This document shows, piece after piece, positions 19,007-28,346 of a stretch of 64,000 bases of DNA (position 1 is the stretch's first letter; each line of letters begins with the position of its first letter). Location: assembly GCA_903837605.1 (NCBI GenBank), contig CAILVF010000087.1, positions 124,001 through 188,000 of the forward strand. The letters run 5' to 3'. The translations under genes and the position numbers were made by a program. The notes beneath the pieces were generated by a model. It ran no database searches, was not told where the DNA came from, and was given only the letters and a program-made list of their open reading frames with translations. This DNA is from an uncultured Bacteroidales bacterium. GTDB lineage: Bacteria > Bacteroidota > Bacteroidia > Bacteroidales > FEN-979.

Positions 19007-19702
19007 ATGAACGGTAAACCTGTGTTTTTTTCAAACTGTGCGGACTGCAACTGCAAATCCTCAATTTTTAAAAGCCTGACCGCTGACGAACTTGAACTTA
19101 TTAATAAAGGCAGATTCCATGTTGCTTACAAAGCAGGTGAAATCATGTTCAAGCAGGGTACTCCTTCATCCCATTTTATTTGTGTTACTTCTGGCCTGGC
19201 CAAGATCTATATCGAAGGCTATGGGAAAAACCTCATCCTCTCCCTGGTCAAACCTGTGGATTATATATTTGGTCCGGGGGTTTATATAGATAACAAACAT
19301 TATTATTCTGCATCTGCTGTTGAAGATTCAACCGCCTGCCTGGTCGATACCGCCATCTTTAAGAAGCTTGTCAGAGCAAATGCAGATTTTGCCGAAGACT
19401 TTATAAAACGCCTTTCAAACCAGACATTGTTTAATTTTGAACAGGTGATCAGCCTCACTCAAAAACAAATGCACGGGCGAATTGCTGATGCCTTATTTTA
19501 CCTTTCCGAAAAAATATACTGCTCAAACCCTTTCAACATGACAATTTCCCGCCAGGACCTTGCTGATATTTCAGGGATGTCAAAGGAAAGTGCTATCAGG
19601 ATACTTAAAGAATTCAAGGAAGAAGGCATTCTTTCGGTAGATGGAAACCTGTTTGATATACTAAATATCAAGCAACTAAAACAGATCAGCGAGACCGGCT
19701 GA
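19007..19702 (+). CDS. CRP/FNR-family regulator with FNR-like cysteine pattern
   Basis: A 231-residue transcription factor. A cyclic-nucleotide-binding-like beta roll (about 20-140) is followed by a winged helix-turn-helix near the C-terminus (TISRQDLADISGMSKESAIR). Cysteines at 11, 14 and 16, plus Cys111 in STACLVD, resemble the layout of the [4Fe-4S] ligands of E. coli FNR (20, 23, 29 and 122), with nearly the same distance to the last one. An oxygen- or NO-sensing cluster is therefore plausible but inferred. It sits directly upstream of the haem-protein cluster, and an FNR-type palindrome begins 39 bases past its stop. Confidence 0.88.
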   Translation: MNGKPVFFSNCADCNCKSSIFKSLTADELELINKGRFHVAYKAGEIMFKQGTPSSHFICVTSGLAKIYIEGYGKNLILSLVKPVDYIFGPGVYIDNKHYYSASAVEDSTACLVDTAIFKKLVRANADFAEDFIKRLSNQTLFNFEQVISLTQKQMHGRIADALFYLSEKIYCSNPFNMTISRQDLADISGMSKESAIRILKEFKEEGILSVDGNLFDILNIKQLKQISETG

Positions 19703-19740
19703 GAAAAATACCAGGGTTCAGATGATATCGACCTATATAA

Positions 19741-19760
19741 TCATTGACATATATCAATGA
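19741..19760. promoter_or_regulatory. FNR/CRP-type palindromic operator
   Basis: TCATTGA-N6-TCAATGA is a perfect palindrome with 7-bp arms. Its core, TTGAC-ATAT-ATCAA (19744-19757), has the 14-bp FNR spacing and differs from TTGAT-N4-ATCAA at one base. It lies between the FNR-like regulator gene and the hexahaem cytochrome gene, about 97 bases before that gene's predicted transcription start. Confidence 0.65.
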
Positions 19761-19833
19761 AGTATTGAGGCATATCATTTCGTTAAGAAACAAATCTCAC
19801 CCACCTGTTAAGTTTATCACAGATTAAGTTCGA

Positions 19834-19860
19834 TATTTTTGTCGTGCAAGATTATTGCAC
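19834..19860 (+). promoter_or_regulatory. Putative -7 element and adjoining inverted repeat upstream of the cytochrome gene
   Basis: TATTTTTG (19834-19841) fits TAnnTTTG, but no good -33 TTG lies 19-21 bases upstream, as expected for an activator-dependent promoter. Immediately after it, GTGCAA-GATTA-TTGCAC (19844-19860) forms a perfect 6-bp inverted repeat over the likely start point. Confidence 0.4.
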
Positions 19861-19911
19861 CATTTTCTGCTAACATAAATGCATTTATTAATTAACAAAA
19901 ACTGAAAGAAT

Positions 19912-20994
19912 ATGAAAAAATTACTCATGTTAGTTCTATCGGGAATCATGGTTATGGCGGTTTCCGGTCTTATTTTCATCGGTTGTACCAAAGAAGGTCC
20001 CCAGGGTCCTGCTGGTGCCAACGGAACAAATGGCAAGGATGCCAACGCAACCTGCACCCTTTGCCATAATTTCGGGGATACCGTCATTGTAAAAATATTC
20101 CAGTATGACGCTTCAAAGCATGCTTCCGCAAGCACAATCGTCGAAGCTGCACGTTCTGGTTGCTCAGGTTGTCATAGTCATGAAGGATTCCTTGAAAAGC
20201 TTCAGACAGGTTCCAGTGTAACTCAGGCATATAATGATGCTGCTCCTATCAATTGCCGCACCTGTCATACCATTCACAGCACTTATACCCCGGCCGACTG
20301 GGCGCTGAGAAATGTAGAGCCTGTTCATCCTTATATTGACTCAACTTCTTCCATCGACCTTACAATTACTATTCCCGGTGGTACCGACGGCACATCAAAC
20401 CTTTGCGGTAAATGCCACCAGGCAAGATTGAATTCCCCATGGATCACCAATCCTAAGGGCACCGACTCATTAGCAGTAACCAGCACCCGCTGGGGACCGC
20501 ATCATGGACCACAATTCCTTATGCTTGCAGGGAAAGGCGCTTTTGAAATGGGAGCTTCCGCTTTTGGAAGTTCAAATCACAGGACCAATGCCACCTGCCG
20601 TAACTGCCATATGGGACCTGCCCAGGGCGAAGCCGTTGGCGGTCATACCCTCAAAATGACCAGTACCGAAACCGGTGACAACGTTGCAGCTTGCAAGCCT
20701 TGCCATTCTTCAATCGGAACAACTTTTGACGTTAACGGTAGACAAACCGAAATTGAAGGTCTTTACCAGACCCTTAAGGTTAAACTGGCCCAGAAGAAAG
20801 TTCTTGACACCATCACTGGCATCCTCAAAGGACCCATCAGTGCATCCAAACCCAAGAAATTCACCCAGATCCAGCTTTCAGTATACTGGAATTGGTGCAT
20901 GGTCGATGCTGACCGCAGTATGGGAGTTCACAATTATGTTTATACAAGGGATATGCTGAATGCAGGCATTGCCTATATGAACTCATTACCGTAG
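19912..20994 (+). CDS. Hexahaem c-type cytochrome lipoprotein with collagen-like linker
   Basis: A 360-residue exported lipoprotein. Hydrophobic residues 4-24 end in LIFIGC, with Cys25 the likely lipidated residue. A short collagen-like GPQGPAGANGTNG run (29-41) follows, then six CXXCH haem sites with cysteines at 48, 84, 115, 165, 229 and 261. The last 90 residues have no haem motif. Multihaem lipoproteins of this kind carry electrons across or at the outer membrane. No catalytic family was recognised. A strong terminator follows, so it may be transcribed separately from the rest of the cluster. Confidence 0.88.
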   Translation: MKKLLMLVLSGIMVMAVSGLIFIGCTKEGPQGPAGANGTNGKDANATCTLCHNFGDTVIVKIFQYDASKHASASTIVEAARSGCSGCHSHEGFLEKLQTGSSVTQAYNDAAPINCRTCHTIHSTYTPADWALRNVEPVHPYIDSTSSIDLTITIPGGTDGTSNLCGKCHQARLNSPWITNPKGTDSLAVTSTRWGPHHGPQFLMLAGKGAFEMGASAFGSSNHRTNATCRNCHMGPAQGEAVGGHTLKMTSTETGDNVAACKPCHSSIGTTFDVNGRQTEIEGLYQTLKVKLAQKKVLDTITGILKGPISASKPKKFTQIQLSVYWNWCMVDADRSMGVHNYVYTRDMLNAGIAYMNSLP

Positions 20995-21011
20995 TCCTTT
21001 TATGCTGTATC

Positions 21012-21050
21012 AAAAAAGGCTTCAGGAAAAGCAATCCTGAAGCCTTTTTT
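21012..21050 (+). terminator. Rho-independent terminator after the hexahaem cytochrome gene
   Basis: Perfect 10-bp arms GGCTTCAGGA and TCCTGAAGCC (21018-21027 and 21035-21044) with a 7-base loop, six A before and six T after. It could act in both directions. Confidence 0.92.
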
Positions 21051-21102
21051 CATAAAATTTAAAAATTTCCAAATTCATTTTATTAACCACAAACATTGAA
21101 AA

Positions 21103-21462
21103 ATGAAAAAGTTAATTAACCTGTTATCTGTAGTTCTGGTACTTTATACTTTGGTGGCCTGCGAATACGCCAAAATATATCCGGACATGCCTTCCCCAAG
21201 TACCCCGGTCCTTTACGCAACTCAAATTCAGCCGATTTTTAACAGTGGTTGTACATGCCATAGAGCAGGAGGTCCAGTGCCTGACCTCGTTGCCGGAAGT
21301 TCCTACGAGAGCCTGATGAGCAATAACCTTGTTGTTGCCGGGAATGCCGCTTCAAGCATATTGTATCAAAAAGTTTCCAGCGGAACCATGTCATCCTATT
21401 GCGATGCAACTCAAGCCGGGCTTATTAAAAATTGGATCAACCAGGGTGCGTTAAACAATTAA
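21103..21462 (+). CDS. Small cytochrome-c-like lipoprotein with a CXCH motif
   Basis: A 119-residue lipoprotein (Cys20 in TLVACEY). The sequence after the anchor looks like a small class I cytochrome c: YATQIQPIFNSGC at the start, a helix-rich middle, and SSGTM with a possible distal Met96. The haem site reads Cys50-Thr-Cys52-His53, one residue short of the canonical CXXCH, and the codons TGT ACA TGC CAT are unambiguous in the sequence given. Either this is an unusual haem attachment site or haem binding has been lost. The DUF5777 barrel gene starts nine bases after the stop, so the two are probably cotranscribed. Confidence 0.75.
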   Translation: MKKLINLLSVVLVLYTLVACEYAKIYPDMPSPSTPVLYATQIQPIFNSGCTCHRAGGPVPDLVAGSSYESLMSNNLVVAGNAASSILYQKVSSGTMSSYCDATQAGLIKNWINQGALNN

Positions 21463-21470
21463 GTATAAAC

Positions 21471-22430
21471 ATGAATAAAACATTTACTATGACAATTAAA
21501 AAGGTTTTCCTCAGCATATTGTTATTTTTCTCGGGTCTTGTTGTGGCTTTTTCACAGGAAGCAGCGGATTCTGCTTCAGCTAAGCCAGCTAAAAAACCCC
21601 TTGAAAAAAGTCCGTTTGAAAGCGGGATTTTCATGGATTACCAAACCGTTAACGTTACCCCCGCCAAAACCCTTGAATTCATTCTGCAACACCGTTTTGG
21701 AAACATTCAGAGCGGGATAAAGGACATTTATGGTTTATGGGGTTCATCAAATATCCGGCTTGGTCTTAATTTCACTCCCATTAAAAATCTTATGATAGGT
21801 ATCGGGACAACTAAAAATTATATGGTCCAGGACCTCCAGGTGAAATACACGTTTTTGCATCAGCGCAAAGGTGGCTGCCCGCTCACCATAGCATACTATG
21901 GAGATCTCGGCCTTGATACCAAAACAAGCAATGCCGGTTACGGTATGGATTACAAATTTTCTGACCGGTTTTCCTGGTACCATGAATTCATGTTTGCCCG
22001 CCGGTTCTGTAAAATGTTCTCAATGCAGATCGGACTGTCTTACTCACATTTTAACAAAGTCGATACAACGGTTACAAATGGCGTAGCTCCAACAAACGAT
22101 GTTGCTTCCTTTTCATTACTTGGCCGACTGAAAGTCAGCCCTCAATCATCTGTCATCCTGTCATTCGAACAACCCATCGTTGTCAACTACGACCCGGCTT
22201 TTGTAGTGAAATCTCCCAATCATTGGCTTTCGATCAAAAGCGGAGTTGCCCCTTACCAAAACGTTAGCCTTGGATGGGAAATCTCCACAAGCACCCATAC
22301 TTTCCAGATCTTCATGTCTTGTGCCAATGGCATTGTGCCACAATATGTCACCGCCAAGAATAACACGGGCAGCTTCTGGAACGGGTATATCCTTTTTGGC
22401 TTTAACCTCACACGTTTGTGGAGCTTCTAA
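21471..22430 (+). CDS. DUF5777-family outer-membrane beta-barrel protein
   Basis: A 319-residue protein with a signal peptide (about residues 1-30, ending AFSQ) and then a chain of amphipathic beta strands ending in Phe (FGFNLTRLWSF), as expected of an outer-membrane barrel. The opening FESGIFMDYQTVNVTPAKTL and HRFGNIQSGIKDIYGLWGSS are typical of DUF5777 proteins, which often sit beside cytochrome genes in Bacteroidota. The ATG at 21471 was chosen over an upstream frame that overlaps the previous gene. Function is unknown; a porin or a sheath for electron carriers is inferred from context only. Confidence 0.75.
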   Translation: MNKTFTMTIKKVFLSILLFFSGLVVAFSQEAADSASAKPAKKPLEKSPFESGIFMDYQTVNVTPAKTLEFILQHRFGNIQSGIKDIYGLWGSSNIRLGLNFTPIKNLMIGIGTTKNYMVQDLQVKYTFLHQRKGGCPLTIAYYGDLGLDTKTSNAGYGMDYKFSDRFSWYHEFMFARRFCKMFSMQIGLSYSHFNKVDTTVTNGVAPTNDVASFSLLGRLKVSPQSSVILSFEQPIVVNYDPAFVVKSPNHWLSIKSGVAPYQNVSLGWEISTSTHTFQIFMSCANGIVPQYVTAKNNTGSFWNGYILFGFNLTRLWSF

Positions 22431-22467
22431 CCTTAATCTGAAACCTTATTAATAAACAAATACAATT

Positions 22468-22887
22468 ATGAAAACAACACAGAAAATTATTACAATCGTG
22501 ATCACTATGGTGATTGCTGTTTTCTTCATCGCAGGTAATACCAATGCTCAGGCTAAAAAACCCTGGGATATTCCTGCTGCTGCAAAATCTGCAAAAAGTA
22601 CTGTAAACCTTAAGGATGCAGGTACAATTAGTAATGGAAAAGACCTTTGGGCAAAACATTGCAAATCATGCCATGGCAGCAAAGGCCTCGGTGACGGGCC
22701 CAAGGCTGCTTCACTGAAAACCAATCCCGGAGACTTCACAGCTGCTGCTTTCCAGGGCCAGACCGATGGAGATTTGTTTTTCGAAACAAGCAAAGGTCGC
22801 GATGAAATGCCTGCTTATGAAAAGAAAATTCCCGAAGCCAATGACCGTTGGGCTTTGGTTGCTTTCATGCGTACCCTGAAAAAATAA
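22468..22887 (+). CDS. Periplasmic monohaem cytochrome c
   Basis: A 139-residue exported cytochrome with a signal peptide ending NTNAQA. One haem site, CKSCH (Cys65, Cys68, His69), and Met114 in DEMPAYEKKI give His/Met-type coordination. The mature protein is about 110 residues, normal for a soluble class I cytochrome c. It likely shuttles electrons between the membrane complex encoded downstream and the outer-membrane partners upstream. A stable hairpin follows the gene. Confidence 0.9.
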   Translation: MKTTQKIITIVITMVIAVFFIAGNTNAQAKKPWDIPAAAKSAKSTVNLKDAGTISNGKDLWAKHCKSCHGSKGLGDGPKAASLKTNPGDFTAAAFQGQTDGDLFFETSKGRDEMPAYEKKIPEANDRWALVAFMRTLKK

Positions 22888-22911
22888 TCAGTTCGATGTA
22901 ATTACATAATA

Positions 22912-22950
22912 TAATGGGTGTTTGCTGTAATCATCAGTAAACACCCATTA
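22912..22950 (+). terminator. Long hairpin between two cytochrome genes
   Basis: A 16-bp stem with one G-U pair (22912-22927 with 22935-22950) and a 7-base loop is followed by only a weak run of T. It may be a partial terminator or an mRNA-stabilising element that sets different levels for the small cytochrome and the downstream membrane complex. Confidence 0.6.
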
Positions 22951-22994
22951 ATTTTAACCGCTGAATTTTCACCATTTTTTAACTGTTCCCTGCT

Positions 22995-24020
22995 ATGATA
23001 TACAGAGCAAATATCCGTCCTGCATGGGTTGTACTTGTTCTTTTACTTTGCTTTGCCATTGCATTTGCCCTTGCGAAACATTCCGATTCGCCGGCCGATG
23101 CAAAACAAACAACCAAACATGAAGTTCAGGAAAAAATTGATATGACAAAGTTCAAAAACTCTGAGACGAATGAACAATGTCTGAAGTGTCATGGCCAGTC
23201 GAAATACACTTACGAAAATGCCGAGTCTAAAAAAATGGTTAATAAAAGAATGTACTCGGAGCTAATTATCAAACGGGATGAATTTTACGTTTCTAATCAC
23301 AAGGGTTTCAAATGTACTGATTGCCATTCTGAAGAATACGGCACCTTCCCTCATTCGGGAAACCTGCGTATGGAATCAAAGGCCAACTGCCTCGATTGCC
23401 ATGGCGGAGATGAAAAATATGCCAAATTTCAATTCGAAAAAATCGATTCGAATTTCATGGCCAGCGTTCATTCCCAAAAACACAGCACTGATTTTACCTG
23501 CTGGATGTGCCATAATCCACATACCTATAAGATCAATGCAAGGACGAATGAAAACCTGAAAGAAACAATTACTTATGATAACCTGATCTGCCTTAGTTGC
23601 CACAGTGATATCACCAAATATGAATTGCTTACAAACAAAGAGAAACCGAATATTCTGGTCAAACACGAATGGCTCCCCAACCAGGCATCGCATTTTACCA
23701 ATGTACGTTGTATTGAGTGCCATGCCCAGAATAAAGACACACTCATTGTTGCCCATCAGATAGTACCAAAAAACCTGGCTGTAAAAAAATGTGAATCATG
23801 CCATGCAAAAAATTCAATCCTTTATGCTTCCCTCTTTAAATACCAGATACAGGAAAACATTAAAACAAAGGGATGGTTTAAAGGTTTGTTCCTGAGCGAA
23901 ACTTCAACAATCGGCCCCGACCAGAACAATACGCTCAATATCATCAGCCTTGCGCTTTTTACGCTTACCTTACTTGTAATCCTGATTCATGCTGTTATAC
24001 GCATCCAAAAATCTCACTGA
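22995..24020 (+). CDS. Heptahaem membrane-anchored cytochrome c
   Basis: A 341-residue protein with hydrophobic segments at both ends (about 9-27 and 315-334) and a periplasmic domain between. Seven CXXCH sites are visible, with first cysteines at 62, 107, 132, 169, 199, 239 and 266. Several other His residues, such as His159 in ASVHSQKH, could be distal ligands. The C-terminal segment would hold it next to the cytochrome b encoded three bases downstream. In Hmc/Tmc/Nrf-type complexes such a subunit receives electrons from a quinol-oxidising membrane module. The order in this cluster supports the same role. Confidence 0.9.
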   Translation: MIYRANIRPAWVVLVLLLCFAIAFALAKHSDSPADAKQTTKHEVQEKIDMTKFKNSETNEQCLKCHGQSKYTYENAESKKMVNKRMYSELIIKRDEFYVSNHKGFKCTDCHSEEYGTFPHSGNLRMESKANCLDCHGGDEKYAKFQFEKIDSNFMASVHSQKHSTDFTCWMCHNPHTYKINARTNENLKETITYDNLICLSCHSDITKYELLTNKEKPNILVKHEWLPNQASHFTNVRCIECHAQNKDTLIVAHQIVPKNLAVKKCESCHAKNSILYASLFKYQIQENIKTKGWFKGLFLSETSTIGPDQNNTLNIISLALFTLTLLVILIHAVIRIQKSH

Positions 24021-24022
24021 CC

Positions 24023-24637
24023 ATGGAAAATCATAATGAACCATTATACCTGTACCCGGTCTGGATCAGATTGTGGCATATCCTGAATGCCCTGTTTTGC
24101 CTCACATTGATCATAACCGGCCTGAGCATCCAGTTCTCAAATCCGACCATAATGGTCAAATTCAGGGCCGCCGTGGCTATTCATAATGTAGCGGGAGTTC
24201 TTTTGTCATTTAATTATATTCTCTTTTTTGTCGGCAACCTGTTTACGAAAAACGGTTCCTATTATGTGTTTGAGGTCAATGGCTTCTTTTCCCGTCTGAA
24301 AACCCAGTTTCACCACTACACTATCGGCGTTTTCAAGAAGGAAGCGGCTCCTTTCCCGGTTACTTTAGAGTCGAAATTCAATCCCCTTCAGCAGTTTTCT
24401 TATGTGGCCGTTATGTACGTAATACTTCCCTTGGTTATTCTCTCAGGCTTAGGATTATTATATCCCGAAATTACCGTGAACAGCCTTATAGGGATCAGCG
24501 GACTGGATTATACAGACCTGTTGCATCTTTTCTGCGGATTCATGGTGACTATCTTCATGTGTATTCATATTTATTTCTGCACTTTCGGTAAAACAGCTAT
24601 AAGTAATTTTAAAAGCATTATTAACGGATATCATTGA
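24023..24637 (+). CDS. Cytochrome b561/HydC-like membrane subunit
   Basis: A 204-residue membrane protein with four main hydrophobic segments. YPVWIRLWHILNALFC is the standard opening of the prokaryotic b561 and Ni/Fe-hydrogenase cytochrome b family. Histidines in LWHIL, AIHNV, LLHLF and CIHIY are placed inside the membrane segments to bind two b haems. It would pass electrons between the quinone pool and the neighbouring c-type haems. The start lies two bases after the heptahaem gene stop, which argues for translational coupling. Confidence 0.85.
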   Translation: MENHNEPLYLYPVWIRLWHILNALFCLTLIITGLSIQFSNPTIMVKFRAAVAIHNVAGVLLSFNYILFFVGNLFTKNGSYYVFEVNGFFSRLKTQFHHYTIGVFKKEAAPFPVTLESKFNPLQQFSYVAVMYVILPLVILSGLGLLYPEITVNSLIGISGLDYTDLLHLFCGFMVTIFMCIHIYFCTFGKTAISNFKSIINGYH

Positions 24638-24660
24638 ACCCTTTATAATATTCATTGATC

Positions 24661-25614
24661 GTGGAAGAAGAACTGAACAACAAAAAGAATTCCAGGCGGC
24701 AGTTCCTGAAAAAGGGCTTACTGGCCGGGGCAGCAGCAGCGGCAGGCGGAGGCATGCTGAAAGCATATTCCGAAACACCAGGCAGCGGAGAAAAGGTAAA
24801 AGTCATGACAACCAATGGCGAGATCATGGAAGTTGATAAGGCTATGCTGAAACTTCCGCGGGTTTCCGTGGAAGAATCTCACCTTGGGATTCCCGGAAAG
24901 AAATTCGTTATGGTGATAGACCTGGCAAAGTGTAAAAATGCGCGCAAATGCGTTCAGGCCTGCCAGAGAGCTCATCACCTTCCAAAAAGCCAGGAATTTA
25001 TGAAGGTTTACCTTTTACAGGATTCCGAAAAAACTTCCCCCTACTGGTTCCCCAAGCCCTGTTTCCATTGCGATAACCCCTTATGTGTTAGTGTTTGCCC
25101 CGTGGGAGCCACATTCAAGCGCAGAGATGGCATTGTGTTGATTGATAATAACCGCTGCATAGGGTGTAAATTCTGTATGACAGGATGCCCTTATTCGACG
25201 AGGGTATTTGCATGGAAACATTATCCCGAATTTGACGAGGATAAAGAACCTTACTCGCCCGAAGCCAGCAGCCCGGGAAAGGAAGGCACCGTTTCCAAAT
25301 GTGATTTCTGCCCTGATCTGATCCGTGTCGGTAAAGTCCCCTATTGCGTTTCGGCATGTCCGATGGGCGTTATTTATTTTGGTGATGTGGATGAGGATAC
25401 TGTTACCAATGGCACGGAAACCTTTCAGTTCAGTGAATTGATCCGCGACCGCGCGGGATACCGCTACCTGGAGGTTCTCGGAACAAGGCCCTGTGTATAT
25501 TATCTTCCTCCTGTCGACCGCCAGTTCCCAGTAGATCGTGGATTTAATGATCTCGACGAGAGTGTTAAAAACAGATATTTGAATACGCCTTACGCAAAAA
25601 AACATAAGCTGTAG
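24661..25614 (+). CDS. Tat-exported 4Fe-4S ferredoxin subunit (HybA/DmsB/NrfC type)
   Basis: A 317-residue iron-sulfur protein. A twin-arginine signal (SRRQFLKKGLLAGAA) directs the folded protein to the periplasmic face. Four cysteine groups follow: CKNARKCVQAC, CFHCDNPLCVSVCP, CIGCKFCMTGCP, and CDFCPDLIRVGKVPYCVSAC, enough for four [4Fe-4S] clusters. No ATG precedes the signal; GTG at 24661 or TTG at 24655 must be used, and GTG was chosen. Such subunits link an NrfD-type quinone-binding protein, encoded two bases downstream, to a redox partner. No molybdopterin subunit is present. Confidence 0.92.
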   Translation: MEEELNNKKNSRRQFLKKGLLAGAAAAAGGGMLKAYSETPGSGEKVKVMTTNGEIMEVDKAMLKLPRVSVEESHLGIPGKKFVMVIDLAKCKNARKCVQACQRAHHLPKSQEFMKVYLLQDSEKTSPYWFPKPCFHCDNPLCVSVCPVGATFKRRDGIVLIDNNRCIGCKFCMTGCPYSTRVFAWKHYPEFDEDKEPYSPEASSPGKEGTVSKCDFCPDLIRVGKVPYCVSACPMGVIYFGDVDEDTVTNGTETFQFSELIRDRAGYRYLEVLGTRPCVYYLPPVDRQFPVDRGFNDLDESVKNRYLNTPYAKKHKL

Positions 25615-25616
25615 CC

Positions 25617-26930
25617 ATGGAAAATAATGAAAAAACCATGCTGAAGGAGTTTGCTCCTCAGATTGAAAGAACAGGCATCCAGGGTTATGCATGGATAGTT
25701 TTCCTGCTTGCCGTAATAGGGTTAGGTCTTTATGCTTTCATCCAGCAGGTGACCAAAGGCCATGTTGTGACCGGGATGCGAGATAATGTTGTGTGGGGCA
25801 TTTACATTGTGAACTTCATTTTTTTTATGGGCGTCAGCTATGCCGGGGCCCTCATTTCGGGCACGTTGCACCTCTTCAAAACTGCATGGAGAAAGCCCAT
25901 TATACGAATGGCTGAATTTATTACTGTCATATCCCTTCTGATAGGTCCATGTTATATCCTTCTTTGTATCGGAAGGCTCGACAAACTTCATTATCTTATT
26001 CTTCACGGGAGGATCCAGTCTCCTATCACCTGGGACGTCATTGCGATCTCAACTGATATCTTCGGCTGTTTTATTTTTCTGTACCTGGCCATTTTAAGAG
26101 ACATTGCCAACATGAGGGATTTCGAAGAACTTCAGCTTCCCAAATGGAGAAAAAAACTTTATAAAATACTGTCCCTGGGATATACCGGTACCGAGGAACA
26201 AAAGAAAAGACTTGAGAGGGCAACAGATATTATGGCAACCATGGTCATCGCTATCGCGATTATTGTGTACTCTGTTTTGGCATGGATCTTCAGTGTGACT
26301 CTGCAGCCCGGCTGGCATAGTACGATTTTTGGCCCCTATTTCGTCATCGCGGCGGTTTACTCTGGTAGTGCCGTACTCATTCTTGCAATGTGGTTCTTTA
26401 GAAAAGTGTACCATCTCGAACAATATATTACAAAGAAGCACTTTGTGTCGGTAGGCCTGATAATGCTTGTTTTAGCGGCATTTTTCGGATATTTCACCTT
26501 CAGTGATTACCTTACTAAATGGTATGGCTCCGAGAAAAACGACGAACTCCTTATCCAGCTTCTTTTTAAAGAATTCTATTGGCCGTTTATTATCTCAAAC
26601 TATATCGGGGTATTGCTGCCATTAATTGTTGTAGGCATTGCAAAATTCCGCACGATTCCAAATATCACCCTAACTGCTGTAGTTGTTATTGTTGCACTCT
26701 GGTTAAACCGTTATCTCATCGTTATCCCAACTCTTCAGTCTCCTTACCTTCCGATTCAGGACAGCAGAATCGAATGGAGTATATATTCTTCAACCTGGGT
26801 TGAATGGAGCCTCACAGCTGCAGGAATAGCGCTTTTCTGCCTTCTCTTCACACTGGCCTCCAAATTCATCCCTATTGTCAGTGTCGGGGGCAATACACAG
26901 GAAGCCAAACCTGAAGACGTTTTAGTATAA
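25617..26930 (+). CDS. NrfD/PsrC/HybB-family membrane subunit
   Basis: A 437-residue integral membrane protein with about ten hydrophobic segments. The conserved stretch DNVVWGIYIVNFIFFMGVSY and the later LISGTLHLFKTAWR match the NrfD superfamily, closest in length to HybB and DsrP-type proteins. It binds quinone at the periplasmic side and exchanges electrons with the ferredoxin subunit encoded just upstream (two-base gap). NrfD proteins carry no haem themselves. The segment order and lack of a fused domain are normal. Confidence 0.92.
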   Translation: MENNEKTMLKEFAPQIERTGIQGYAWIVFLLAVIGLGLYAFIQQVTKGHVVTGMRDNVVWGIYIVNFIFFMGVSYAGALISGTLHLFKTAWRKPIIRMAEFITVISLLIGPCYILLCIGRLDKLHYLILHGRIQSPITWDVIAISTDIFGCFIFLYLAILRDIANMRDFEELQLPKWRKKLYKILSLGYTGTEEQKKRLERATDIMATMVIAIAIIVYSVLAWIFSVTLQPGWHSTIFGPYFVIAAVYSGSAVLILAMWFFRKVYHLEQYITKKHFVSVGLIMLVLAAFFGYFTFSDYLTKWYGSEKNDELLIQLLFKEFYWPFIISNYIGVLLPLIVVGIAKFRTIPNITLTAVVVIVALWLNRYLIVIPTLQSPYLPIQDSRIEWSIYSSTWVEWSLTAAGIALFCLLFTLASKFIPIVSVGGNTQEAKPEDVLV

Positions 26931-26950
26931 ATCCCTTTATCCAGGAAATC

Positions 26951-27847
26951 ATGAAAAGAAATTTATACAAAATTCTCATACTGGCAGTGATAACGATACT
27001 GTTCGTCCCCTCATTGATGCAGGCCCAGGCAAAAGGTGACAGCAGCGCTGTTCAGGAGGCCCGCCTGACGTTTTCATATTTATGTACTTCCAATGATTCA
27101 ATTTGCCTTACGGCAAATCTATTCGTCAAGAGAGAGAGCGACACATACGGGCTGATGGGTGCAAAGATCGATTTTTATTCCACCCAGGATAATACGCTCG
27201 TCCTCCTGGGAACTGCTGTTGCCGACCAGGATGGGAATGCATCGCTCAATGTCATAATCAATAAACTACATCCGGGAAAAGACGGCATGATCAGCTATAC
27301 TGCCAAATTTGGCGGTACTCCAAAATACAGTTCGGCATCAGCAACTTTCAGTGCTGAGCCGGCTAAGCTGCGTTTGACATTCAACGTACAGGATTCCATC
27401 CGTTACCTGAACGTCATCGGCACCCGCAAAGATGCCAAAGGACAGGAAGTTGCCCTGCCGAAAGAAACGGTCATCCTTTATGTTCCCCGACTGTTCAGTT
27501 TACTGAAAATAGGAGAAGTTGCACTTGATGAACAGGGAAAGGGAAGTTTGGAATTTCCTGCTGATATTGTGGGTGATACACTGGGCAATCTTAAAATCAT
27601 TGCAAAAATAGAGGAAAACGAAAAGTATGGATTTGTTCAGGGGACTTCAACCATTAACTGGGGCGTTCCAAAGCAGTATTACAAGGCGGAAGTGCCTTCC
27701 CGGGAACTTTGGACCCCTATTGCTCCTTTATGGATGATCATTACACTGATCATCATGCTTGCGGGGGTATGGGCCCATTATTTCTATGCTGTGTGGGAGC
27801 TTTTCATGATTAAAAAGGCGAGTAAAAAAGATCAGCCTCCAATCTAG
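26951..27847 (+). CDS. Periplasmic Ig-like protein with C-terminal membrane anchor
   Basis: A 298-residue protein not recognised as a named family. It has a signal peptide (1-26, ending LMQAQA), two beta-rich Ig-like repeats (about 35-140 and 145-240), and a C-terminal membrane helix (WMIITLIIMLAGVWAHYFYA) with a short basic tail. It contains no haem motif. It is the last gene of the apparent operon, 20 bases after the NrfD gene, so it is likely a structural or assembly subunit of the membrane complex. That role rests on position only. Confidence 0.7.
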   Translation: MKRNLYKILILAVITILFVPSLMQAQAKGDSSAVQEARLTFSYLCTSNDSICLTANLFVKRESDTYGLMGAKIDFYSTQDNTLVLLGTAVADQDGNASLNVIINKLHPGKDGMISYTAKFGGTPKYSSASATFSAEPAKLRLTFNVQDSIRYLNVIGTRKDAKGQEVALPKETVILYVPRLFSLLKIGEVALDEQGKGSLEFPADIVGDTLGNLKIIAKIEENEKYGFVQGTSTINWGVPKQYYKAEVPSRELWTPIAPLWMIITLIIMLAGVWAHYFYAVWELFMIKKASKKDQPPI

Positions 27848-27878
27848 TTTAAGCTCTTTTTCCGTAGCTTTGAACCCG

Positions 27879-28346
27879 ATGAATTCCGGGTACAAATTAT
27901 CATCTTCTTCAAAATCCCTGGCCGTCGGAAAGACAAATCCTGCCAGGCCATCCTTAAAGGAAAGCAGTATTCGTGGGGTTGTTGTTCACGGCAACCATCT
28001 TGGAAGTACCCTTGGTTTCCCCACCGCCAATATTATCCCCCCCGAAGATCATCCGCCGGTAATTCCAAATGGAGTTTACCTGGTAAGCGTTATGCTGAGG
28101 GAGAAAGAATTTTTCGGTTTATGTAATATTGGGTACCGCCCTACAATTGGCGGAACTCATATTGTAATCGAGGTCAATATTCTTGATTTTTCAGATGATA
28201 TTTACGGTGAGGAGATTTCGATCAGGGTCATAAAGGCTATCAGAAAGGAAAAAAAATTCAAGGACCTTGAACAGCTTGTTAACCAGATCAAACTTGATAA
28301 GTCGAAGGCCGTAAAGTTTCTCTCAGCGTTGAATAAGAATGAGTGA
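27879..28346 (+). CDS. Stand-alone riboflavin kinase domain protein
   Basis: A 155-residue protein equal to the C-terminal half of RibF. GSTLGFPTANI is the PTAN flavokinase motif that binds ATP-Mg; PNGVYLVSV, NIGYRPTIGG and VEVNILDFSDDIYGE follow in order as in RibF. The nucleotidyltransferase domain that makes FAD from FMN is absent, and the first 30 residues are low-complexity. It should convert riboflavin to FMN only. An upstream TTG at 27870 is possible; the ATG at 27879 was chosen. It overlaps the convergent GldH-like gene by 24 bases and follows the respiratory operon by 31 bases. Confidence 0.85.
   Translation: MNSGYKLSSSSKSLAVGKTNPARPSLKESSIRGVVVHGNHLGSTLGFPTANIIPPEDHPPVIPNGVYLVSVMLREKEFFGLCNIGYRPTIGGTHIVIEVNILDFSDDIYGEEISIRVIKAIRKEKKFKDLEQLVNQIKLDKSKAVKFLSALNKNE

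Follow-up and report, generated by a model that had tools for sequence, protein, structure and literature searches.

Ten consecutive genes at positions 19007–27847 of a stretch of DNA from an uncultured Bacteroidales bacterium (contig CAILVF010000087.1; "the window" denotes the whole 64,000 nucleotides analysed) raise the question of where electrons drawn from a quinol pool would go in a cell that encodes so many haem proteins side by side. The genes, called g1 to g10 here, all lie on the + strand with intergenic gaps of 2–209 bp in our open reading frame (ORF) check of the window, provided that g4 starts at the ATG at 21465. An earlier note, made from the sequence alone, had read them as a candidate quinol-to-surface electron-transfer system with 15 haem sites (6, 1 altered, 1 and 7). 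Its inventory holds: the ten same-strand genes are there, Pfam returns the same DUF5777, b561, CRP/FNR, NrfD and iron–sulfur (Fe-S) assignments, and the motif count gives 14 sites of the form CXXCH and one altered to CXCH, with six CXXCH in g2, one altered CTCH site (CX1CH) in g3, one CXXCH in g5 and seven in g6. Our results also support its general idea of electron transfer on the quinol side, involving cytochromes that lie outside the cytoplasm.

With moderate confidence we propose that these genes form a modular respiratory cluster of Bacteroidales that oxidises menaquinol and feeds cytochromes facing the outer membrane. The parts are of known kinds and the arrangement is new. We distinguish module A (g8, g9, g10 and g5), related to alternative complex III (ACIII); module B (g6 and g7), a multihaem cytochrome c with a cytochrome b; and module C (g2, g3 and g4), the envelope side.

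Conservation and modularity of the cluster

A search based on g9 gave 21 loci, all from named metagenome bins of Bacteroidota; several of the bins carry the label LacPavin, and some loci are cut by contig ends. The order g5-g6-g7-g8-g9-g10 is kept in 19 of these 21 relatives; L022 and L023 are relatives without g6-g7, g1 is inverted and g2 located downstream in L017, and more than 1 kb separates g1 from g2 in L008, L011 and L014. All seven haem sites are present in 19/19 relatives having g6, and the CXXCH of g5 in 20/20; because of these conserved counts and the kept gene order, we consider that the haem motifs are not chance occurrences. Identity to the window drops steeply in g2, to 25–30% in nine relatives whose g9 is 82–85% and whose g6 is 66–72% identical, making g2 the least conserved multihaem protein, and it falls in g3 and g4 too among the g9-found relatives.

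Of 295 Bacteroidales genomes sampled across the order, 65 were found to have g6, so that the core of the block recurs in about a fifth of them. We fetched 35 of these 65 g6 neighbourhoods, chosen for long contigs, and counted gene presence by tblastn: g6 and g7 were found in 35/35, g3 and g4 in 31/35, g2 in 26/35, and g1 and g5 each in 25/35. Module A was complete in 9 neighbourhoods, a gene for a second type of multihaem protein, resembling ImcH, was present in 11, both in 1 and neither in 16, and g6-g7 stood without the Fe-S/NrfD module in 26. Because g6-g7 and module A occur separately, the ten genes are modular and not one indivisible unit. The earlier note had proposed checking conservation of the ten-gene order; the g5–g10 part of it stands in most of the g9-found relatives, but the ten genes do not travel as a whole.

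This modularity bears on the parallel with Hmc, Tmc and Nrf drawn in the earlier note, according to which the block would encode a single transmembrane complex of that kind with its catalytic subunit encoded elsewhere. The same parts are indeed present (multihaem c, cytochrome b, Fe-S and NrfD proteins), and the best NCBIfam match of g8 is DsrO, below the cut-off. However, the c/b561 pair stands apart from module A in 26 of the 35 neighbourhoods, g9 is ActC-like when compared with solved structures, and no HdrD/DsrK-like subunit of the Hmc/Tmc/Dsr kind is recognised among the ten genes by Pfam and NCBIfam, a genome-wide search not having been made. We regard the single-complex explanation as very improbable. 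The earlier note had named a known catalytic subunit always encoded elsewhere as a finding that would refute its proposal; no such constant partner was seen in the 35 neighbourhoods examined, and an attempt to identify a terminal reductase by position was abandoned for the same reason.

An ACIII-like core and its link to oxidases

The centre of module A is g9 (25617–26930, + strand), an NrfD-family membrane protein by Pfam with 10 helices predicted from hydropathy. In a profile search of the PDB its top four matches were ActC of ACIII structures (E 1.6e-66 to 1.5e-52), followed weakly by ActF, with no further match up to E 10, PsrC included. Its partner g8 (24655–25614, + strand; Pfam, alignment) is a 319-aa Fe-S protein of the twin-arginine translocation (Tat) type, homologous to the C-terminus of ActB. 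The Tat ferredoxin with four clusters of the earlier note keeps its four motifs, but in 17/17 aligned sequences the second Cys of motif 1 is absent, and one cluster is probably [3Fe-4S] or missing. In ACIII the [3Fe-4S] motif (CxxTxxC in ActB), which lies next to the quinol site, is motif 3; motif 3 of g8 is complete (CIGCKFC), and the ActB signature is thus absent. The remaining members are g5 (22468–22887, + strand), a monohaem cytochrome c by Pfam, for which we infer an ActE-like role, and g10 (26951–27847, + strand), with a marginal, sub-threshold Pfam match to an immunoglobulin (Ig)-like periplasmic domain, a C-terminal membrane helix and no convincing match in the PDB (best E 0.17).

Other components of ACIII were looked for. 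The molybdenum (Mo)-like B1 domain of ActB is absent from g8, which is Fe-S only, and the one PF00384 protein of the genome is of another kind, an FDH/GltD/NuoG-like fusion adjoining a NuoF-like gene. No ActF is encoded in the block, and the three PF03916 proteins of the genome each have their own g10, although a weak-scoring distant ActF is conceivable. As to the pentahaem ActA, g6 has seven haems, and the weak similarity of the single sequence to 8k9e_A (E 0.011) was not recovered by profile search at E 0.01. Judged by sequence, module A is ACIII-like rather than ACIII, because the Mo-like domain, ActF and the [3Fe-4S] motif are missing and quinol-site charges are lost. In a tree of NrfD proteins, in which the outgroup is distant, the rooting unsure and two very long rows were left out, the type found in the window and at C76, a contig of the same genome, lies next to canonical-type ActC (95/91), and the type found at C81, another such contig, and in distant genomes lies apart.

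The paralogues of module A tell more about what it may do. Two further copies exist in the source genome, at C76 and C81, and none of its three NrfD proteins is of another kind. At C81 the order is Fe-S, NrfD, a cytochrome c::g10 fusion, SCO1, COX1, COX3, COX4-like and COX2; at C76 an FNR-like gene is followed by Fe-S, an NrfD::g10 fusion (746 aa) and a monohaem c. Because of these two fusions, NrfD::g10 and c::g10, g5, g9 and g10 belong to one unit. Among 20 further loci picked from weaker g10 matches, of which several end at contig ends and three have no NrfD match, COX1 was found in nine, and in all nine SCO lies between COX1 and the c::g10 gene. At L207 the paralogue adjoins cbb3 ccoNO. 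The source genome (97% complete) encodes a COX-type haem-copper oxidase and a cbb3 oxidase, and no cytochrome b of bc1 type was found in it.

Some paralogues have other neighbours. In another genome (L221 and L233) a module A paralogue lies near a two-haem cytochrome c and narG, narH and narI, and at L221 it adjoins narG/narH, with the cytochrome between and narI beyond; the idea that module A replaces NarI at L221 was rejected, since narI is present beyond narH. The 746-aa NrfD::g10 fusion (L042:10517–12757) also lies beside a membrane protein of 554 aa whose match to DUF2339 is sub-threshold, and similar modules are located near ImcH-like genes in L240, L244 and L245. In the phylum sample g10 was found in 10/395 genomes. 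A role of module A as a pure replacement of ACIII was rejected for nine distant genomes, where canonical-type ActC is present too.

Another explanation is that module A simply serves oxidases, that g2–g7 form a separate periplasmic system, and that the two are mere neighbours with no common pathway. In the stretches fetched for C76, C81, L237, L240, L243, L244 and L245, module A does stand without g2–g4 and without g6-g7, and the separation in the 26 neighbourhoods noted above points the same way. What argues for a common pathway is the tight same-strand order when the genes are together (g6, g7 and g8 are separated by 2 bp and 17 bp only), the conserved operator-like site before g2, and the co-occurrence of g6 with strong g10 matches in 19 genomes (totals 65 and 27 of 295; p 2e-8, relatedness ignored). 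Genomes with weak g10 matches only showed no link to g6 (13/44 have g6; p 0.24, relatedness ignored). On balance we find the absence of any shared pathway rather improbable.

The heptahaem c/b561 pair and the ImcH-like proteins

The heptahaem cytochrome c g6 (22995–24020, + strand; Pfam, motifs, alignment) has hydrophobic helices at both its N- and C-terminus. Beyond its seven haem motifs it has nine invariant His in 20/20 sequences, which suffices for bis-His ligation of all seven haems. The invariant His332 lies inside the C-terminal predicted membrane helix, where contact with a haem or another subunit is possible. Its neighbour g7 (24023–24637, + strand) is a cytochrome b561 (Ni_hydr_CYTB; PF01292, 74 bits) with 4 predicted helices and four conserved His, which suggests that it carries two haem b. 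We read the two as a putative split version of the CbcL-like arrangement, and the heptahaem c/b561 pair is a module separate from module A.

The 500-residue seven-haem proteins encoded near g6 were first taken for octahaem reductases; this was rejected when they proved to be ImcH-like. They are 497–508 aa long with one CX3CH and six CX2CH motifs in 11/11, have three helices in the 4 examined, and match NapC/NirT and NrfH-like models in Pfam and NCBIfam, all of which fits the description of ImcH in PMC6295460. In the source genome the ImcH-like gene lies on C33, away from other cytochrome genes. Across the order, g6 and ImcH-like genes co-occur in 44 genomes (totals 65 and 57 of 295; Fisher p 8e-25, relatedness ignored). 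Proteins of 920–935 aa with 19 haem motifs lie beside or near g6-g7 in L151, L156, L166 and L176; in L151, the only one checked, Pfam confirmed a b561 domain. L170 has an 18-haem-motif fragment at a contig end, and L164:3–2453, also at a contig end near the cluster, is an 817-aa ORF with 16 haem motifs in two repeats.

We favour the quinol-oxidising direction because of the oxidase-linked paralogues and the ImcH association. The opposite would be electron uptake, with envelope cytochromes accepting electrons from an external donor or a partner cell and modules A and B reducing menaquinone. Such a reversal has precedents, as NrfD/Fe-S pairs work both ways (Qrc reduces menaquinone and Act oxidises menaquinol; PMC6303296) and CbcBA is predicted to run reversed in a syntrophic sulfate reducer (PMC10553843). 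Yet the paralogues of module A adjoin oxidases, which requires the quinol-oxidising direction, and the strong partner of g6 is ImcH-like, a protein whose homologues are reported only from Fe(III)-reducing bacteria in PMC6295460. Uptake therefore appears to us quite improbable.

The probable envelope side

Module C begins with g2 (19912–20994, + strand; motifs, profile search), a hexahaem c-type protein and probable lipoprotein with a collagen-like stalk. Among 45 sequences, counted after removal of matches with fewer than five haem motifs, 44 have six haem motifs, 44 a Cys within the first 45 residues, and 44 a collagen-like stretch of five or more G-X-Y triplets close to the N-terminus. The best match of the g2 profile was 6i5b ("uncharacterized protein"; E 2.9e-15), and further matches were the nitrite reductase 8rv0 (E 2.5e-13, profile positions 83–361) and the cytochrome c552 1gu6 (E 1e-7). 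By homology the core of g2 is placed in the NrfA/octahaem nitrite reductase superfamily, its haems 2–6 aligning with haems 1–5 of NrfA (2j7a). The mean pLDDT (predicted local distance difference test) of the AlphaFold2 model of g2 is a poor 53.

The earlier note's phrase "without a recognisable terminal reductase" is weakened by this homology, and the strongest rival to our proposal is one in which g2 itself is the terminal reductase, with its active site at haem 2 and a small periplasmic or extracellular oxidant as substrate; modules A and B would be its quinol dehydrogenases and there would be no electron conduit. In favour of this, the profile matches both octahaem and pentahaem nitrite reductases, and the non-motif His 70, 122, 197, 223, 245 and 340 and Arg172 are invariant in 45/45 sequences, H197 lying between haems 4 and 5. 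In NrfA the Lys of CXXCK and the Tyr and His of the pocket are catalytic, and this His sits in the segment matching the g2 haem 4–5 interval, where H197 is found. However, g2 has CXXCH in place of the catalytic CXXCK and lacks both the Tyr that follows the haem 3 motif of NrfA and its QHPE stretch, and to this extent the phrase stands. In addition, six invariant extra His for six haems permit full bis-His ligation, g2 is poorly conserved and was not found in 9/35 neighbourhoods, and the structural model is unusable for the question. We consider it unlikely, though well worth keeping in mind, that g2 is the terminal enzyme. The statement that the block has no molybdopterin subunit, NrfA or HdrD-like protein is true of the block, but has to be read with this superfamily membership and with a nitrite reductase gene pair, nrfHA, which the same contig carries some 25 kb upstream of the block and beyond the window (C87:116188–118346, the same as L044:12188–14346).

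The small g3 (21103–21462, + strand), recognised by its motif with nothing found by Pfam, is a probable c-type lipoprotein with an altered haem site. This site reads CTCH in the window and in the four relatives closest to it (L004–L007), CX4CH in L018 and L021, and CXXCH in most other copies; in the window and L004–L007 its haem is probably lost or unusual. In examined loci carrying both, g3 lies beside g4 (21465–22430, + strand), a predicted outer-membrane barrel of the DUF5777 family (PF19089). The AlphaFold2 model of g4 has a mean pLDDT of 79 and 12 strands, and FapF, NanC and OmpG are among its best Foldseek matches (E 1e-6 to 1e-7) with template modelling scores, by query, below 0.5. The idea of a split Cyc2, with g3 plugging the DUF5777 barrel, was rejected on account of the 12-strand model and of a window g3 without CXXCH.

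The association of DUF5777 with haem proteins extends beyond this cluster, because 26/31 DUF5777 loci (two of them from the source genome) have an ORF with haem-like motifs within about 1.5 kb, as judged by eye. In distant Bacteroidota g3-g4 also accompany module A, near an ethylbenzene-dehydrogenase-like protein in L046 and L047, a hexahaem protein in L047 and L053 and, by eye, YceI-like proteins in L048 and L050. A second DUF5777 locus of the source genome (L057:8289–11359) has two haem lipoprotein-like ORFs and also YceI-like and OB-fold-like genes, all by eye.

Regulation and flanking genes

The cluster opens with g1 (19007–19702, + strand), a CRP/FNR-family regulator (Pfam cNMP-binding and HTH_Crp_2; alignment) with an N-terminal CxxCxC and one more conserved Cys in the alignment. 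Between g1 and g2, 168 bp before g2, lies an FNR/CRP-like palindrome, TTGACATATATCAA (19744–19757, no strand assigned), and a second with one mismatch, TTGAGGCATATCAT (19765–19778, no strand assigned), starts 21 bp after the first. An exact TTGAN6TCAA occurs 163–172 bp upstream of g2 in 16 of 20 loci, against 0–3% expected per locus by chance (shuffling), and the second, one-mismatch copy follows exactly 21 bp on in 15 of these 16, L016 being the exception. Four loci have no such site: L017, L018 (where no more than 111 bp could be read), L022 and L023. At C76 the site recurs 214 bp ahead of the Fe-S gene, and C81 has none. It would be at the palindromes before g2 that g1 acts. Promoter-like and terminator-like patterns were near expectation (19 observed vs 19.4 expected and 12 observed vs 9.9 expected, respectively).

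Upstream the block is flanked by a semialdehyde dehydrogenase gene. Downstream, 23 bp past g10, begins a 158-aa ORF with a riboflavin-kinase (Flavokinase) domain (27870–28346), and in most g9-found relatives whose sequence extends far enough a homologous stretch follows g10; there may be a connection to flavin cofactors or shuttles.

Proposed model

We propose the following scenario. Menaquinol would be oxidised at two places, at g9/g8 and at g7/g6. Module A would work as a small quinol:cytochrome c oxidoreductase of ACIII-like type that lacks the Mo-like domain, ActF and a clear ActA, and module B as a split CbcL-like quinol:multihaem-c oxidoreductase, the subunits of each presumably forming a complex. 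Electrons would then pass via g6 and g5 to g2 and perhaps further outward, module C receiving them at the outer membrane, with g2 held on its stalk, the lipoprotein g3 and the barrel g4. The whole set is probably turned on by g1 at low oxygen or upon another redox cue. Export of electrons to the surface is faintly hinted at by the probable stalked lipoprotein and the barrel; the final acceptor may be an extracellular oxidant, another cell acting as partner or a small molecule that g2 reduces.

A number of findings weigh against this proposal. For g8 and g9, NCBIfam ranks DsrO, DsrP, QrcC and QrcD and no Act model, all below cut-off; the best for g9 are DsrP and QrcD, far under their cut-offs, and DsrO reaches 167 of 200 bits with g8. 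The ten-helix group includes ActC as well as DsrP and QrcD (PMC6303296). The charged residues of the ActC quinol site are His139, Asp169 and Asp253 (PMC5928083), of which g9 keeps Asp169 alone, Cys standing in place of His139 and Ile in place of Asp253. Nine distant genomes with module A also carry a longer canonical-type ActC (frames of 461–497 aa), the type being named from length, place in the tree and, for three rows, quinol-site residues; eight of the nine are in the tree and G391 is not. In 16 of the 35 neighbourhoods both module A and an ImcH-like gene are absent. On the envelope side, a simple lipobox pattern fits g2 in 31/45 sequences, g3 of the window has lost the CXXCH spacing, the 12-strand DUF5777 barrel as modelled is probably not wide enough to serve as a cytochrome conduit, and the DUF5777 family is no marker of extracellular transfer because it is common in Bacteroidota (115/296 genomes).

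More tentatively still, and with some doubt on our side, the cluster could represent an undescribed extracellular or cell-to-cell respiratory system in which two parallel menaquinol exits feed collagen-stalked hexahaem proteins. The exits would then be the split CbcL-like bc pair and either the ImcH-like cytochrome or a Mo-free mini-ACIII (Fe-S, ActC-like, Ig/transmembrane (TM) and monohaem c subunits), and the latter would constitute a further class of quinol:cytochrome c oxidoreductase, used with aa3-type and cbb3 oxidases as well as with envelope cytochromes in Bacteroidota.

Uncultured Bacteroidales of anoxic waters are usually described as fermenters. If our proposal is correct, a defined membrane route would connect their menaquinol with the cell envelope, and it could be traced in metagenomes with g6 (65/295 genomes of the order) as a marker. 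It would also mean that neither the Mo-like scaffold nor ActF is needed for the ActC/Fe-S core of ACIII to work, and therefore the minimal quinol-oxidising unit of the ACIII family would become testable. The collagen-stalked hexahaem protein would be an unusual means of holding a haem wire or enzyme off the membrane.

Comparison with known systems

A literature search that left preprints and most subscription journals outside found no description of DUF5777, of this cluster or of a mini-ACIII. A metabolic figure for a Prolixibacteraceae (Bacteroidales) bin depicts an NrfD, a 4Fe-4S protein and a multihaem cytochrome (PMC10504345) and may be an earlier sighting of a related set. In Bacteroidetes, 5 CbcL-type homologues and 1 ImcH homologue have been counted (PMC6295460).

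On the envelope side, g2 is homologous in sequence to NrfA and the octahaem nitrite reductases, but lacks the catalytic Lys, Tyr and His and has an extra N-terminal haem and a collagen-like stalk behind a probable lipobox. The block resembles the porin–cytochrome conduits (MtrAB, Pcc) in encoding a barrel and haem lipoproteins together; in contrast to these, g4 is predicted to have 12 strands rather than to form a large barrel, g3 is monohaem at most, and no MtrA-like protein was recognised among the ten genes. ImcH of Geobacter has its likeness in the proteins adjoining the cluster in 11/35 neighbourhoods and in one elsewhere in the source genome (C33), although these are outside the block of the window and share a neighbourhood with module A in 1/35 only.

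On the membrane side, g6-g7 resemble by description CbcL, MtrH and MtoC of Geobacter and others, which combine a multihaem c with a membrane cytochrome b of the HydC/FdnI type. However, g6 and g7 are separate ORFs 2 bp apart with seven haems and four predicted b helices, and CbcL has nine haems and six helices (PMC9129911). NhcABCD of Desulfovibrio is likewise similar by description: this complex spans the membrane, and its subunits include a multihaem c protein and the NrfD-like NhcC (PMC8076601). Compared with ACIII of Rhodothermus marinus and Flavobacterium johnsoniae, the block encodes neither the Mo-like domain of ActB nor a second NrfD nor an ActD-like protein; its incomplete Cys motif is motif 1 in g8 instead of motif 3, two of the three quinol-site charges are lost, and the Ig/TM subunit g10 has no convincing counterpart in the PDB. 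Shared with ACIII are the ActC-type subunit, the Tat Fe-S protein, the monohaem c partner and the paralogues linked to oxidases.

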